Source of the DNA: Aurantiacibacter rhizosphaerae | GTDB taxonomy: Bacteria; Pseudomonadota; Alphaproteobacteria; Sphingomonadales; Sphingomonadaceae | Direction of reading: 5' to 3' | Length of the DNA: 64,000 nt | Assembly: GCF_009807005.1 (NCBI RefSeq) | Contig: NZ_WUBR01000003.1 | Location: 1 to 64,000, forward strand | Shown here: one piece after another, positions 4,122 to 48,806 of the stretch | Layout of the letters: the number at the start of each line of letters is the position of its first letter | How positions within the stretch are numbered: the stretch's first letter is position 1 | The notes under the pieces: generated by a model | Database searches by the model: none | Told to the model about the DNA's origin: nothing | The model's input: only the letters and a program-made list of their open reading frames with translations | Position numbers and translations under genes: made by a program

Positions 4122-4267
4122 GAAAAAATTCCTCCATTAATCCGCGCATCCCCAAACCTGAAGTGGCGCGATGTGCTCCCCTTAACGAATGTTCCCGATG
4201 CCAGTTCCGCGAAGCCGTGCTTTCTGGGCTTTTGCGCAATCCCATAAACCTGCTAGCGGGAATCGCG

Positions 4268-5587
4268 ATGAGCCCCTTCCCCTGGCATTACGCGGCCGCG
4301 CTCGCTTTCCTGATCGTTCTCAACGGCGTTTTTGCCATGTCGGAGCTGGCGATCGTCTCTGCGCGCACCGCCCGCCTGCGCATGGCCGCCGAAAAAGGCA
4401 GCAAGAGCGCCGAGGTCGCCATGCGTCTGGCGGCAGAGCCGGGCAAGTTCCTCTCCACCGTGCAGATCGGCATCACGCTGATCAGCATCATTGCTGGTGC
4501 GGTGTCGGGCGCGGCGCTGGGCGCCCCTGTGGGGGAGCGGATCTCTGCCTGGTTCGGCCTGGATGAGGACACGGCCTATAATGTCGGCTTTGCCATCGTG
4601 ATCGGCTTCACCACCTTTGGCACACTGATTGTTGGCGAGCTGGTGCCAAAGCAACTGGCGCTGCGCGCCGCGACACCAATCTCGCTGGTGATGGCAAGGC
4701 CGATGGCGCTGCTGGCGAAGGTGGCCGCGCCCTTCGTCTGGCTGCTGGATGCGTCATCCAGCCTGCTGCTGTCGATGATTGGCATGCGCAACAAGGGCGA
4801 TCACCGGCTGACGGCGGAAGAACTGCACATGATCTTTGCCGATGCCACGCGCACCGGCGTGATAGAAGAGCAGGAGCGCGCCATCCTTTCGGGCATCATG
4901 CGGTTGCAGGATCGCCCCGTCAGAGAATTGATGACGCCGCGCACGCAGATCGACTGGATCGATATCAACGCGGATGACGATGCACTGCGCACGGCGATTG
5001 CCGAATCGCCGCATTCGCTGCTGCCCGTGGCCGAAGGCTCTCCCGACAAGGTTCTGGGCGTGGTGAAGGTGCGCGAGGTGCTGACGCTGCTGATGACAGG
5101 CCGCACGGTCGTGCTGGACGAGCTGATGCGCAAGAGCGAGGTGGTGCCGGACCAGCTGGACGCGATGGATGCGCTGCGCGTGTTGCAGCAATCGGGCACA
5201 GGCATGGCGATGGTGCATGATGAATATGGCCACCTAGACGGCATCGTCACCACGGCGGACCTACTCTCGGCCATCGCCGGTGATTTTGCCAGCCACCAGG
5301 ACGAGGGCGATACGCCCATGTTCACAGAGCGTGAAGACGGCAGCTATCTGGTGTCAGGCGCACTGGCGGCAGATGCGCTGGCAGATCGCCTCGACCTGGA
5401 TTTTCCGGAGAACAAGGAATTCGCCACCGCTGCGGGATACGTTCTGTCCGTGCTTAAGCACCTGCCTGCCGAGGGCGAGTTCTTCATCGATCAGGGATGG
5501 CGTTTCGAGATCGTCGACATGGACGGGCGCAAGATCGACAAATTGCTGGTTGCGCGGGAGAAGCCCGGCGATTTGGTCGACGAATAG
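4268..5587 (+). CDS. Hemolysin-family CNNM/CorC-type membrane protein (DUF21-CBS-CorC)
   Basis: The 439-aa protein has the standard order for this family: an N-terminal DUF21 (CNNM) domain with four hydrophobic segments (about 1-180, including NGVFAMSELAIVSAR), a pair of CBS domains (about 210-330; MTPRTQIDWIDI and HDEYGHLDGIVTTADLL), and a C-terminal CorC/HlyC transporter-associated domain (about 350-435). Family members are implicated in Mg/Co export or resistance; the hemolysin name is historical. The frame extends 35 codons upstream, but homologous sequence starts at the ATG chosen. The 3' end faces the DUF3035 lipoprotein operon, with a dispersed repeat between them. Confidence 0.88.
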   Translation: MSPFPWHYAAALAFLIVLNGVFAMSELAIVSARTARLRMAAEKGSKSAEVAMRLAAEPGKFLSTVQIGITLISIIAGAVSGAALGAPVGERISAWFGLDEDTAYNVGFAIVIGFTTFGTLIVGELVPKQLALRAATPISLVMARPMALLAKVAAPFVWLLDASSSLLLSMIGMRNKGDHRLTAEELHMIFADATRTGVIEEQERAILSGIMRLQDRPVRELMTPRTQIDWIDINADDDALRTAIAESPHSLLPVAEGSPDKVLGVVKVREVLTLLMTGRTVVLDELMRKSEVVPDQLDAMDALRVLQQSGTGMAMVHDEYGHLDGIVTTADLLSAIAGDFASHQDEGDTPMFTEREDGSYLVSGALAADALADRLDLDFPENKEFATAAGYVLSVLKHLPAEGEFFIDQGWRFEIVDMDGRKIDKLLVAREKPGDLVDE

Positions 5588-5594
5588 ATCGGGA

Positions 5595-5837
5595 TTTGTT
5601 TGTTTTTCGATTGCGCCTCCGCGCAATCGTCCTCGCTAGATGCGCAGCAAGTTGCGCCCGCTGCGGGCGGCCAGTCGGCCTTGCGGTGCGCTAGTCGCGG
5701 ACCGATCCAGCACACACCTTAAAGTGGTGCGGAAGAAACGGTCGCGACAAGTGACCGCAAGCGCGAATGCGCGCCCGAGCTTCTGCGAGGAAAGCCAAGC
5801 AGCGCGGACGCGCTGCGCCCGGCGCTTGAGGGCCAAA
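5595..5837 (-). repeat. Dispersed structured repeat, copy A
   Basis: On the minus strand this begins directly at the stop codon of the DUF3035 lipoprotein gene with GGCCCTCAAGCGCCGG and matches copy B (14965-15213) over most of its length, including a GCTCGG block, the GCAAGGCCGACTGGCC block, the GCCCGCAGCGGGC hairpin and the CATCTAGCGAGGA linker. It ends in a perfect 9-bp hairpin (5608-5616 with 5621-5629) with loop GGAG on the minus strand, followed by an A-rich tail (T-rich 5595-5607 on plus). Copy C is at 47657. I do not recognise a named family. The whole stretch between the two convergent genes is this element. Confidence 0.85.
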
Positions 5838-6245
5838 TCAGGAAGGTATTACGGCCCGTGCTGCCTGCCCGTCACCTTCAGGGGCGGCGATGATGGCCTG
5901 CGTCGTGGTGCCCTTGTCCACCGTGTAGGTTTCCGCATCGCCAATGGCAGAGCGGATGCCGGGATCGGCCTGGCCCGCCTGATCCAGCGCGGAGGTTTCG
6001 ATGGTGCTGCGCTGCGATGGGCCGCCGAACAGTGCTTCCAGCGCCTGCTGCGAGGCGGTGCCTTCTGCAGGGCGCGGGGCGCCGGGTGCGGGCGGCTCCA
6101 GGTGGAAATCGGGCGGGATCACCAGCGGCGCCTGGCGCTGCACGGCAAATTCATCCGGACGATCGCGGTCAATACTGATGCCGCCACAGGCGGACAGGCC
6201 AAGCACGGCGGCAGAGGCAATAAGGGCGCGGGTGTGATTACGCAT
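5838..6245 (-). CDS. DUF3035 lipoprotein (BamF-like)
   Basis: A 135-aa lipoprotein with lipobox LSAC (Cys20). The segment DRPDEFAVQRQAPLVIPPDF is the hallmark of DUF3035, a family found in alphaproteobacteria and proposed as BamF, a component of the outer-membrane beta-barrel assembly machine. The rest is Ala/Pro-rich and low in predicted structure. An upstream extension of 46 codons overlaps lspA and lacks support; the chosen ATG precedes a normal signal peptide. It is the last gene of the long minus-strand operon, 34 nt after lspA, an appropriate neighbour because LspA cleaves prolipoproteins. Repeat copy A starts at its stop codon. Confidence 0.8.
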   Translation of the reverse strand: MRNHTRALIASAAVLGLSACGGISIDRDRPDEFAVQRQAPLVIPPDFHLEPPAPGAPRPAEGTASQQALEALFGGPSQRSTIETSALDQAGQADPGIRSAIGDAETYTVDKGTTTQAIIAAPEGDGQAARAVIPS

Positions 6246-6279
6246 AGTTGTCAATTCTCCGGGCTCATGGGCCATCGGT

Positions 6280-6798
6280 CTATTCAGTAGCAGCGTCCTG
6301 CTCATTGGACGGTTTCTCGCGCATGAACAAGGCGCGGGCAAGGATAATAACAACGCCGATCGTGATCGCGGCATCGGCGACATTGAAAATCAGGAATGGA
6401 CGAAAATCGCCGATATGCAGGTCGGCATAGTCGATGACATAGCCGTATAGATACCGGTCGCGGATATTTCCCAGCGCGCCGCCCAGCACCAGCCCCAGGG
6501 CCAGAATTTCGCCCAGCAGCTTTTCACGCAGCATCCACACCAGCACCACCAGCGCGATGGCGGCCGTGCCGGCGACCAGTATCCAGCGCATTTCCATGCT
6601 GGTCGCCTCGAACATGCCGAGCGAGACGCCGTAGTTGTTGGTGCGGGTGAAATCGAAGAAGGGCAGCAGCGGGTAATGGTCACCCACGCGGGTGAGGCCC
6701 AGGTCCTCCACCACGAAGTTTTTCACCCACTGGTCAATCCCGAAAATCGCCAGCGCCAGCACGATGCCATAGATACGGAACTTGGCCAGCGCGCTCAT
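6280..6798 (-). CDS. lspA: Lipoprotein signal peptidase II
   Basis: LspA (172 aa) is the inner-membrane aspartyl protease that removes signal peptides from lipid-modified prolipoproteins. Four hydrophobic segments are visible (about 10-27, 70-90, 96-110, 138-156). The catalytic aspartates are Asp123 in GYVIDYADLH and Asp142 in FNVADAAI, with the conserved GGALGNIRDR between them; TRTNNYGVSLGMF (51-63) is the sphingomonad-type version of the NxGAAFG motif. The start overlaps the ileS stop by 4 nt (ATGA), the classical ileS-lspA coupling. Several likely substrates (lipobox proteins) are encoded in this same window. Confidence 0.96.
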   Translation of the reverse strand: MSALAKFRIYGIVLALAIFGIDQWVKNFVVEDLGLTRVGDHYPLLPFFDFTRTNNYGVSLGMFEATSMEMRWILVAGTAAIALVVLVWMLREKLLGEILALGLVLGGALGNIRDRYLYGYVIDYADLHIGDFRPFLIFNVADAAITIGVVIILARALFMREKPSNEQDAATE

Positions 6799-14876: not shown

Positions 14877-14951
14877 GCCGCGGTAGCTCAGTGGTAGAGC
14901 GCACCCTTGGTAAGGGTGAGGCCGAGAGTTCAATTCTCTCTCGTGGCACCA
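14877..14951 (+). tRNA. tRNA-Thr (anticodon GGT)
   Basis: Full cloverleaf: acceptor arm GCCGCGG pairs with TCGTGGC (two G-U pairs), D-arm GCTCAGTGGTAGAGC, anticodon arm CACCC-TTGGTAA-GGGTG with anticodon GGT reading ACC/ACU, T-arm with GTTCAATTC, discriminator A at 14948 and an encoded CCA (14949-14951). A run of six T follows immediately. Repeat copy B begins 13 nt after the CCA. Confidence 0.97.
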
Positions 14952-14964
14952 TTTTTTGTTTTGG

Positions 14965-15213
14965 CCTCAAGCGCCGGCGTTCGCGTCCGCTCACTTGGCT
15001 ATCCTCGCATCAGCTCGGACGCGCAGTCGCGCTTGCGGTCGTTATCACGACCGAGCCCTATTTTATGCCTCGTGAATTGGGCAAGAAACGGTCCGCGCCT
15101 AGCGGAGCGCAAGGCCGACTGGCCGCCCGCAGCGGGCGCAGCTTGCTGCGCATCTAGCGAGGACGCACCGGCGGAGGCCGGTGCGCAAAGCATAAATCGC
15201 CCGGCGCTTGAGG
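14965..15213 (+). repeat. Dispersed structured repeat, copy B, with 13-bp inverted ends
   Basis: This is the most complete copy. CCTCAAGCGCCGG (14965-14977) and CCGGCGCTTGAGG (15201-15213) are perfect 13-bp inverted termini. Inside are four hairpins: CGGTCGT/ACGACCG with loop TATC (15036-15053), GCCCG/CGGGC, GCGCAGC/GCTGCGC with loop TT, and a 9-bp stem with GGAG loop (15164-15185) followed by CAAAGCATAAA. Copy A (5595-5837, minus) and the shorter copy C (47657-47806) share the linkers and the final hairpin. The ends resemble a miniature inverted-repeat element; the hairpins suggest a structured transcript. It fills the space between tRNA-Thr and the PH-domain gene. Confidence 0.87.
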
Positions 15214-46699: not shown

Positions 46700-47491
46700 T
46701 TATCCCGATGCCGAGGTGCTCATTGCATGCAGAATCACGCGAATGGTCTCCTCTGGCTGATCCCACATGGGAAAGTGTCCGCTACGTTCGAACCAGTGCA
46801 GCGTCGCTTCGGGAAATGCTTTGATCGCGCGATCCGCCTGCTGCGGTAGACACAGCCGATCCTTGCGTCCCCAGCCGATGACAACGGGCTCAGCTGTTTT
46901 CGCAGGTCCCTCTTGCATTGCGCCGTCGGCGAGGTCCTTCACGAGCGAGTTGACGGTCCGCGTATTAGCCAATGACCTGAGTTCACGCGCGACGAAGGCC
47001 GGGTCGAGTTTCCAAGGCCTTGCAGAAAGCTGGGCCATCAGCGCGGTCCGGCCTGCGACATTTCCGGTAATGGCAGAAAGCGCCGGTCGCAGCGCGCGAA
47101 CCAGGGCAACCGATGGCGTTATGGTCGCTTTGAAGAAGTTACGCTCCCACCCCTGCCAGAAGCCGCCCGGATCCAACGCGACAACCGCGCCCGCTCGGCC
47201 GCGCCGCGCCATCTCGAGCACCAGGCGAGCGCCCAACGAACTGCCAACCATATCAATATCTGTGAGATTCTTCGCGCCGAGCCAGTCGTCCAGACTCCGC
47301 GCGAGACCGTCGAACGTTCCGCTGTCGGCCTCTTCGGGTGTCTGCCCATGGCCGGGTAGGTCTATGGCGATCACATCCCTGACTTGAGAAAGCGCAGGCG
47401 AGATCGTGTCCCACGAGCCGGAAGTAGCCCCTAGTCCGTGGACAAGGAGAAGGGGTTTTCCGCGCCCTGCGCGGGTAATGTGCATGGTCAT
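46700..47491 (-). CDS. Alpha/beta-fold hydrolase
   Basis: A 263-aa hydrolase. The oxyanion region LLVHGLGATSGSW (15-27), nucleophile Ser85 in GSSLGAR, an acid in GWGRKDRLCLP and His in RSGHFPMWDQPE give a full catalytic triad. Substrate unknown. Codon use differs from the neighbours, with more TTC/CTC/TCG mixtures and fewer CTG, and it sits alone on the minus strand between glpX-linked genes and prs, so it may be a recent arrival. Confidence 0.8.
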   Translation of the reverse strand: MTMHITRAGRGKPLLLVHGLGATSGSWDTISPALSQVRDVIAIDLPGHGQTPEEADSGTFDGLARSLDDWLGAKNLTDIDMVGSSLGARLVLEMARRGRAGAVVALDPGGFWQGWERNFFKATITPSVALVRALRPALSAITGNVAGRTALMAQLSARPWKLDPAFVARELRSLANTRTVNSLVKDLADGAMQEGPAKTAEPVVIGWGRKDRLCLPQQADRAIKAFPEATLHWFERSGHFPMWDQPEETIRVILHAMSTSASG

Positions 47492-47656: not shown

Positions 47657-47806
47657 TTGCCCTCAATGCCAATTGGAGGCACAAGCTCGGTCGGCACCTC
47701 GCCGACCGCAAGGACGAACGCCCGATCGCAGCGGGCGCGTAGCGTAGCGGAGCGCGTCTAGCGAGGAAGCAGCCGCGGAGGCGGCTGCGCAAAACAACGG
47801 GCCTCC
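47657..47806 (+). repeat. Dispersed structured repeat, copy C (short variant)
   Basis: A roughly 150-bp variant of copies A and B. It opens with TTTTGCCCTCAATGCC, keeps the AGCTCGG block, a first hairpin GGTCGGC/GCCGACC (47689-47707, loop ACCTC), CGCAGCGGGCGC and the TCTAGCGAGGA linker, and ends with an 8-bp hairpin (47769-47776 with 47781-47788) whose loop is GGAG, followed by GCAAAAC. The final stem sequence differs completely from A and B although pairing is kept. It ends about 65 nt before prs. Confidence 0.8.
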
Positions 47807-47870: not shown

Positions 47871-48806
47871 ATGAAAATCATGTCCGGCAATTCGAATTTG
47901 CCCCTCGCCCGTGCCATTGCCGGCTATCTTGAAGTTCCCCTCACCGATGCCAGCGTTCGCCGCTTTGCCGATGAAGAGGTGTTCATCGAGATTCACGAGA
48001 ACGTGCGTGGGGAGGACGTGTTCATCGTTCAGTCCACCAGCTTCCCGGCGAATGACAATCTGATGGAACTGCTGATCGGCATCGATGCGCTGCGCCGCGC
48101 GTCTGCCAAGCGGATCACCGCTGTGGTGCCCTATTTCGGCTATGCCCGGCAGGATCGCAAACCCGGCCCGCGCACGCCGATCTCGGCCAAGCTGGTGGCA
48201 AACCTGATTACAGAGGCAGGCGCGGATCGCGTGCTGGCGGTGGATCTGCACGCAGGCCAGATCCAGGGCTTCTTCGATATCCCGACCGACAATCTCTATG
48301 CCGCGCCCACCATGGCTGCCGATATCCAGGCACGTTATGGCGAGAAGGACCTGATGGTCGTCTCCCCCGATGTGGGCGGCGTGGTGCGCGCCCGCGCCCT
48401 GGCAAAGCGGCTGGACAACGCCCCGCTCGCCATCGTGGACAAGCGCCGCGATCGCCCCGGCGAAAGCGAAGTGATGAACATCATCGGTGATGTGAAGGGC
48501 CGCTGCTGCATCCTAATTGACGATATCGTCGATTCGGGCGGCACGCTGTGCAATGCTGCGCAGGCGCTGCTGGATCAGGGCGCGAAAAGCGTGACGGCCT
48601 ATATCACGCACGGCGTGCTGTCGGGCGGTGCGGTGGCGCGGGTGAACAAGTCCGCGCTGAAGGAGCTGGTAATTTCCGATTCCATCCAGCCGACCGATGC
48701 GGCCAAGGATTCAGACCGCATCCGCATCCTGCCCATCGCCCCGCTGCTGGGCGAGGCGATTCGCCGCATTGCGGATGAAAGCAGCGTCTCCAGCCTGTTC
48801 GATTGA
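47871..48806 (+). CDS. prs: Ribose-phosphate pyrophosphokinase
   Basis: PRPP synthetase (311 aa) makes PRPP from ribose 5-phosphate and ATP for nucleotide, histidine and tryptophan synthesis. [54 protein letters not shown] and the PRPP loop [18 protein letters not shown] are all present. It is the first gene of a unit with the cupin lipoprotein and hisN, the latter a use of PRPP-derived histidine synthesis. Confidence 0.97.

Follow-up and report, generated by a model that had tools for sequence, protein, structure and literature searches.

Palindromic mosaic elements between the genes of Aurantiacibacter rhizosphaerae carry covarying hairpin stems that look exchanged as blocks

BIMEs of E. 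coli and the RIMEs of Rhizobium are intergenic mosaics of palindromic modules. REPs are generally located at gene ends, between unidirectional and convergent genes, and the CGTC-tagged REPs of alphaproteobacteria, sphingomonads included, have stems of 8-9 bp and loops of 4-5 nt, are mostly arranged as inverted dimers and come without a transposase gene (PMC3733652, in the part of that source available). A second body of work concerns template-switch compensatory mutations, in which several bases change in a single event without G-U intermediates; in the available part of PMC8794818 these are described for RNA genes and within a locus.

Here, we describe three copies of an intergenic palindromic element in the genome of Aurantiacibacter rhizosphaerae (GCF_009807005.1), together with their relatives. 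The window, i.e. the whole stretch of DNA that was analysed, comprises 64,000 nt (contig NZ_WUBR01000003.1, positions 1 to 64,000). A sequence-only reading of this window had claimed three copies with shared linkers, each ending in a hairpin whose perfect stem closes on GGAG, and re-reading of the window bore out the positions, the linkers and this ending, in which GCGAGGA precedes the stem. Copy 1 (5597-5837, minus strand; ends placed by eye) fills the gap between two convergent genes, after the stop codon of a DUF3035 gene (5838-6383, minus) and facing a CNNM/CorC gene (4163-5587, plus). Its outer hairpin CGATTGCGC-GGAG-GCGCAATCG (5608-5629, minus) has 9 bp and is followed by an A-rich tail. 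A central variable spacer of 34 nt (5705-5738, minus; by eye, unparsed by the spacer script) separates two inverted arms, the other of which (5739-5837, minus; by eye) has a type II end with CCCTCAAGCGCCGGGCG, a hairpin GCAGCGCG/GCGCTGC and a TCCTCGC linker. This other arm is a weak inverted match (5740-5842, plus, E 0.029) to R1, a covariance model built from seven copies of the own genome. Copy 2 (14965-15213, plus) stands directly after a tRNA-Thr gene (14877-14951, plus) and has a 9-bp outer hairpin CGCACCGGC-GGAG-GCCGGTGCG (15164-15185, plus), a central variable spacer of 35 nt (15054-15088, plus; again by eye and unparsed by the script) and an inverted arm that weakly matches R1 (14955-15052, minus, E 0.0025). 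Copy 3 (47657-47806, plus) is a shortened element between divergent genes encoding an alpha/beta hydrolase (46700-47491, minus) and a ribose-phosphate pyrophosphokinase (47871-48806, plus); it matches R1 at 47689-47798 (E 2.1e-15) and its outer hairpin GCAGCCGC-GGAG-GCGGCTGC (47769-47788, plus) has 8 bp. Judged by eye, copies 1 and 2 measure about 240-250 nt with two inverted arms, and copy 3 retains little of the left arm.

The statement that two of the three copies stand behind a gene end and share its orientation was right, copy 1 following DUF3035 and copy 2 tRNA-Thr. The A-rich tail is clear in copies 1 and 3 and less so in copy 2. The GGTC/GACC hairpin that had been said to covary is ambiguous, as two such hairpins exist in different arms: the one beside CAAG is perfect in copy 3 and mismatched in copies 1 and 2, which have the second one paired, in the opposite arm. 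Apart from the stems of the three copies, the window holds only three perfect stems of ≥ 8 bp on a 4-nt loop, the loops of all six being GGAG in three (with CTCC as mirror in three) and GCCG, TTTT and TCGC in one each, plus their mirrors. All three copies fold as RNA into more stable structures than their dinucleotide shuffles (z -6.5, -4.0 and -2.75 for copies 1, 2 and 3, respectively).

When the copies and their relatives are compared side by side, many elements consist of two inverted multi-hairpin arms that flank a variable centre. From the centre outward, a type I arm comprises h1 (for example CGGTCCGCGCCTAGCGGACCG), CAAG, h2 (GGCC-GACT-GGCC or GGGC-GAAC-GCCC), h3/h4 (either CCCGCAGCGGG with a second hairpin or, alternatively, a GGTGC...GCACC hairpin), then GCGAGGA or CACCGAGGA, h5 as the outer hairpin, and the A-rich tail. 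The hairpins are joined by conserved linkers, and the type I end can be written as CGAGGA-(9-bp stem)-GGA(G/T)-(stem')-A-rich tail. Some arms carry a type II end, in which GCGAGGAAAGCCAAG is followed by its own variable hairpin and by CGCCCGGCGCTTGAGGGC. Central spacers differ between copies: 34 of the 49 that were parsed measure 32-37 nt, 25 of these 33-34 nt, with a script that accepted only 15-70 nt, could read 49 out of no more than 187 modules and took five loci in both directions. No steady T run occurs in 38 spacers, so that the spacer was rejected as the U-tract of a terminator; T makes up 37-47% at each of the first three positions beyond the right h1, read outward. A central promoter was likewise rejected, since no sigma-70-like site was found around copies 1 and 2.

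Outer-hairpin candidates were selected on the presence of GGA, which left out 85 of 295 context hits. The GGA stands at offset 9 in 192 of the 210 candidates that have it at offset 6-14, and the 18 with other offsets were left out, as were five of the 192 with fewer than six pairs. The loops of these 192 are GGAG (127), GGAT (57), GGAA (six) and GGAC (two). A different GC-rich palindrome (ACCCCGGACTTGATC...GGGG) was observed inside or replacing a hairpin, at an inner hairpin tip in locus L131 and also in L302, which suggests that hairpin tips are insertion hot spots. At the tRNA-Thr site of one relative (L168), a hairpin array is followed by CCTACTG/CCTATTG-like units in a short tandem array.

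The elements resemble the CGTC-tagged REPs in stem and loop size, inverted pairing, gene-end location and the lack of an associated transposase, as far as these are described in the available part of PMC3733652. They differ from them in that no unpaired CGTC tag precedes the stem: here, CG from GACG forms part of the paired stem, and on the CGTC-bearing strand CGTC stands after it. Whereas the same part of PMC3733652 gives A/T at the first two stem positions and a CCA tail, these positions are mostly C-G and G-C in our modules (158 of 187 at pair 1 and 185 of 187 at pair 2, respectively) and the tail is A-rich; in addition, the elements form a chain of about 240 nt with several hairpins per arm. 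The likeness to REPINs and GTAG REPs, within the same portion of PMC3733652, lies in inverted hairpin doublets that are dispersed and intergenic and in subfamilies with alternative complementary stem residues, but G-T pairs, 'often observed' in GTAG stems, make up 2.1% of cells here. No GTAG was seen by eye beside the outer hairpin, and copy 3 has GTAG within an inner hairpin. A search for a Y1 transposase (RAYT) in the own genome gave no match at E up to 1, which takes out membership of a RAYT-driven REPIN family. With BIMEs and RIMEs the elements share their kind, an intergenic palindromic mosaic, a likeness of description and not of modules compared by sequence. They are dispersed, intergenic, palindromic and close to gene ends, which are broad REP/BIME traits, but tag, first stem residues and tail all differ, and they are therefore placed in the REP/BIME kind, outside the CGTC-tagged and REPIN families. 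The copies are best read as belonging to a new family of mosaic palindromes of the REP/BIME type, one without a RAYT.

A DNA search of the own genome with copy 2 returned 23 places at E up to 1, of which 15 at E < 1e-5 (query included), and with R1, 25 matches were obtained at E up to 10, of which 14 at E < 1e-8; some of the weaker matches fall on the second, inverted arms of elements that also match strongly. R1 matches every one of the 25 same-genus genomes searched, 1 to 50 times in each, and not one of the 16 genomes taken from other families of the order. The larger searches used stricter filters and scored few candidates per genome, so that their counts are lower bounds: the family has matches in at least 79 of 298 genomes, spread over 31 of 96 genera, and a draw from the order has them in at least 54 of 246 genomes, all 54 from the same family, although how many genomes of other families were drawn is not given. 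Copy 2 had no match among phage sequences at E 1e-3, and a phage origin was discarded on that ground. A plasmid search retrieved only a 74-nt type II end, in seven Sphingobium records at 76-77% identity; this end, occurring beyond the present group, may be older and more widespread than the type I arm.

The sequence-only reading knew of no named family, and Rfam agrees: at the gathering score, its covariance models find only two tRNAs in the window, with nothing for copies 1 and 2 at E up to 1 and copy 3 searched at the gathering score only. No description of this palindrome family was found in the open-licence literature searched. RepRanger tabulates REP numbers for Erythrobacter cryptus, without sequences in the part of PMC12306157 available, and none of four genus terms for the group of the host, nor Caulobacter or Zymomonas, occurs in the available part of PMC2267715. 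The copies belong to a dispersed intergenic family that was found neither in Rfam nor in the literature searched.

Pairing in these hairpins is preserved to a high degree. Among the seven own-genome copies, 97.0% of 201 cells are paired and six are unpaired; 15 cells changed on both sides and none changed on one side only to another standard pair. In 187 modules chosen by their linkers, the interior cells of h5 are Watson-Crick in 1459 cases, G-T in 18, A-C in nine and other in ten, and the terminal pair is Watson-Crick in 164, G-T in six, A-C in 13 and other in four. For h2, 655 of 664 cells in 166 modules are Watson-Crick, three G-T, one A-C and five other. To avoid selecting for pairing, ten genomes were also searched with a pattern that leaves six stem pairs free, which yielded 161 matches against one for the reversed control. 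The pattern set analysed consists of 150 of these (the remaining 11 are all from genome G011): 847 of its 900 free cells are Watson-Crick, 19 G-T, 11 A-C and 23 other, against 50%, 6.2%, 5.3% and 38.6%, respectively, when arms are shuffled. With 847 of 900 cells paired where shuffling gives half, the covariation of the outer stem is real and strong. It also extends far beyond the three copies on which it had been proposed, as 193 modules hold 100 distinct 9-bp outer stems; the lack of covariation across the genome that would have overturned the proposal was not observed. The stems of the three copies, which had been called unrelated in sequence, are so only in part: most family members start with CG.

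To follow how stems change, copies were treated as orthologous on the basis of the sequence beyond the tail, resulting in 344 between-genome pairs in 26 groups; these pairs and the modules are phylogenetically non-independent, and the modules retrieved are mostly the top-scoring ones. In 22 orthologous pairs from 10 loci with a linker identity ≥ 0.9, stems are identical in 11, differ at one pair in none and differ at two to six pairs in 11, and seven of the 10 loci include a change of at least three pairs. A binomial of equal mean predicts exactly one change in 22% of pairs (observed in 0 of 22), this null ignoring age differences among pairs, which alone add zeros. When an inner-part identity of 0.7 is added, 16 pairs are left, nine identical and seven with three to six changes. 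Over all 344 pairs, differences range from 0 to 7 with every value present and 22 pairs at one, as gradual change would also give. Two sites aligned in full illustrate such changes. Between genomes G013 and G011, spacer and arms align at the CNNM/DUF3035 site (identity over the gap 262 of 308, gaps counted), one outer stem differs at three pairs and another hairpin tip differs as well, with a 12-nt insertion. At a second convergent site of the same two genomes, flanked by genes that are presumably MarC-like and LON-like, four pairs are changed in one outer stem and none in the other (245 of 308, gaps counted). The outer stems look as if they had been exchanged as blocks, by conversion between copies or by template switching. 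Single-pair compensation also occurs, since 26 of 28 perfect distinct stems have a neighbour one pair away.

Identical stems recur at non-orthologous positions, and more so within a genome: 40 of 768 comparisons of non-orthologous modules within genomes share a stem versus 397 of 17356 between genomes, a level reached in none of 500 label shuffles (four of 197 modules carry no genome label and were left out). In the pattern set, with orthologs included, sharing is weaker (87 of 1491 within versus 380 of 9684 between). The G011 stem at the CNNM site, for instance, is found at one more place in G011 and in five other genomes of 40 when one mismatch is allowed. Template-switch changes in RNA genes were described within a locus in the available text of PMC8794818, whereas here the same stems occur in other copies too, which suggests exchange among the repeats. 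Together with the recurrence of stems, within-genome sharing favours exchange between copies, with template switching as an alternative or as a source of new stems. We infer exchange from donor to recipient from these patterns and not from any single proven event. Chimeric stems were set aside as proof of exchange, as only one case is convincing: a stem of genome G346 matches one pool stem with its 5' arm and another with its 3' arm, with two mismatches. Six further stems with one mismatch have both arms in the pool, which point mutation could explain. As a separate observation, imperfect stems with one arm in the pool have the 3' arm there in 19 of 24 cases, the 5' arm seeming to carry more mismatches; the count is 18 of 23 when a six-mismatch G011 match is omitted (p 0.01) and 15 of 20 for distinct stems (p 0.04). 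The chances are about even that a genus-wide pool of interchangeable perfect stems exists, which the repeats trade as blocks via recombination of their DNA or template switching and which generates strong covariation poor in G-U pairs without stepwise compensatory selection on RNA.

Taken as a whole, we read the copies, with a probability of about 0.57, as non-autonomous intergenic palindromic mosaic elements of REP/BIME/RIME-like kind, in which stems are replaced as blocks and which might, less certainly, act at the RNA 3' end. New stems would mostly form through changes of single pairs and would spread afterwards, and the replacement of whole stems, through exchange between linker-sharing copies and/or template switching at the hairpin, would keep the hairpins perfect yet diverse. 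Any cellular function we can only infer: in a transcript, the element might form a structured 3' boundary that shields the upstream mRNA and dampens read-through between converging genes, and its gene-end position might be kept by selection for such a role or merely by avoidance of harm.

The elements favour positions behind genes, most of all between convergent ones, a placement that bears on these proposals. Gene contexts were determined with a simple codon-usage gene caller and include orthologs, so that the 184 distinct contexts (84 convergent, 86 tandem, 14 divergent) are non-independent; compared with the 62 adjacent gene pairs of the window (10 convergent, 42 tandem, 10 divergent), convergent contexts are in excess (p 2e-5) and divergent ones in short supply (p 0.08). 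Where the tail points at a gene end (128 modules), h5 stands exactly 9 nt from the stop codon in 35. TAG accounts for 50 of 98 such stop codons within 25 nt, against 218 of 648 in the genes of the retrieved loci (p 0.001), a background that includes the tail-facing genes themselves and extra loci. At two intergenic sites the model finds the element in 18 of 25 and in 19 of 29 loci; the own genome is counted, and five of 30 and one of 30 loci with an unmatched second flank are left out. At both sites, modules, spacers and stems vary, as does orientation once, and at the first the genes abut with nothing between them in four relatives. The sites persist while the sequence of the element turns over, and this persistence could reflect selection. 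Opposite orientations were observed in relatives at the same gap, in G346 at the CNNM/DUF3035 site (L135) and in G345 at the tRNA-Thr site (L158), so inversion or independent insertion occurs. In three loci (L297, L301 and L307), a small ORF flanked by CTCCCGC...GCGGGAG palindromes replaces the element in the convergent gap; we take this ORF to resemble a DUF559-type cassette.

Overlapping with the reading preferred here is a possible, though less probable, alternative: a selfish miniature transposon, spread by some transposase that needs DNA hairpins, for which gene ends are the least harmful places. Such an element would fit with sites that are filled in some genomes and empty in others and with the one orthologous site where the orientation is opposite, and also with the inverted organisation, the genome-specific sharing of stems and the over-representation of TAG beside the tail, where the element end could supply the stop. 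The Y1 transposase, the only class searched for, is however absent from the own genome and present in just three of 40 genomes of the genus, and most of the relatives examined have kept the element at the same sites. Mobility is plausible, with no candidate enzyme among the Y1 transposases sought.

Covariation is standard evidence for structured RNA, and the sequence-only reading took kept pairing with changed sequence as the mark of selection on RNA; the covariation is strong, but this inference does not follow here. Tolerance of G-U on one RNA strand would leave more G-T than A-C mismatches, whereas in double-stranded DNA each is the mirror image of the other. An alternative that is on balance unlikely is selection on RNA structure alone, with hairpins acting in the 3' part of the transcript and stems evolving by ordinary compensatory substitution. 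It would account for the strong conservation of pairing, the placement after genes with the 9-nt spacing from stops, the repeated occupation of the same gene ends and the single-pair neighbours among perfect stems. The excess of G-T over A-C in interior cells (18 to nine) and in the pattern set (19 to 11) points the same way. In the latter, G-T makes up 19 of 53 non-Watson-Crick cells (36%) against 12% in shuffles, which leaves room for tolerance at the RNA level, and A-C 11 of 53 (21%) against 11%; when every cell is counted, the G-T share falls below that of shuffles, though only because nearly all cells pair. The excess of G-T over A-C is however not significant, being 15 to eight for distinct interior pairs (p 0.21) and 23 to 17 with terminal pairs (p 0.43), and at the terminal pair it is reversed, with 13 A-C against six G-T. 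At orthologous sites, 761 of 914 non-independent double changes (83%) are purine-pyrimidine flips, which no single G-U step can bridge, and 153 could pass via G-T; among the 100 distinct stems, flips account for a share of only 0.75, where equal base frequencies would give 0.67. The none-or-several differences at closely matched loci and the greater sharing of stems within genomes also argue against this alternative, and it is the non-significant G-T excess, the dominance of flips and the change of several pairs at once that weaken the inference of RNA selection. G-U tolerance at the RNA level may nevertheless contribute, a DNA cruciform may be the structure concerned, and selection on structure may act jointly with stem exchange.

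It is quite improbable that the elements are bidirectional transcription terminators between convergent genes: the convergent enrichment and the terminator-like matches around copy 1 (three, two of them inside, versus 0.6 expected) and at one copy 2 hairpin (two, overlapping, versus 0.6 expected) would agree with this, but the matches in these two scanned copies are few and lie at other hairpins, and the outer hairpin has an A-rich instead of a U-rich tail, with the U-rich tract on the strand of the facing gene standing before it, between stop codon and hairpin, so that it is no standard terminator.

If stems are indeed replaced as blocks, a pattern usually taken as proof of a working RNA may partly stem from DNA copying between repeats. 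The family would then speak, as a natural counter-example, against taking covariation as proof of functional RNA, and would let the process be observed: block changes between close relatives, mostly flips, would show covariation arising at the DNA level, and orthologous gene ends offer many natural replicates. It also adds to the genomes of this group a family of intergenic elements with a preferred distance to the stop codon.
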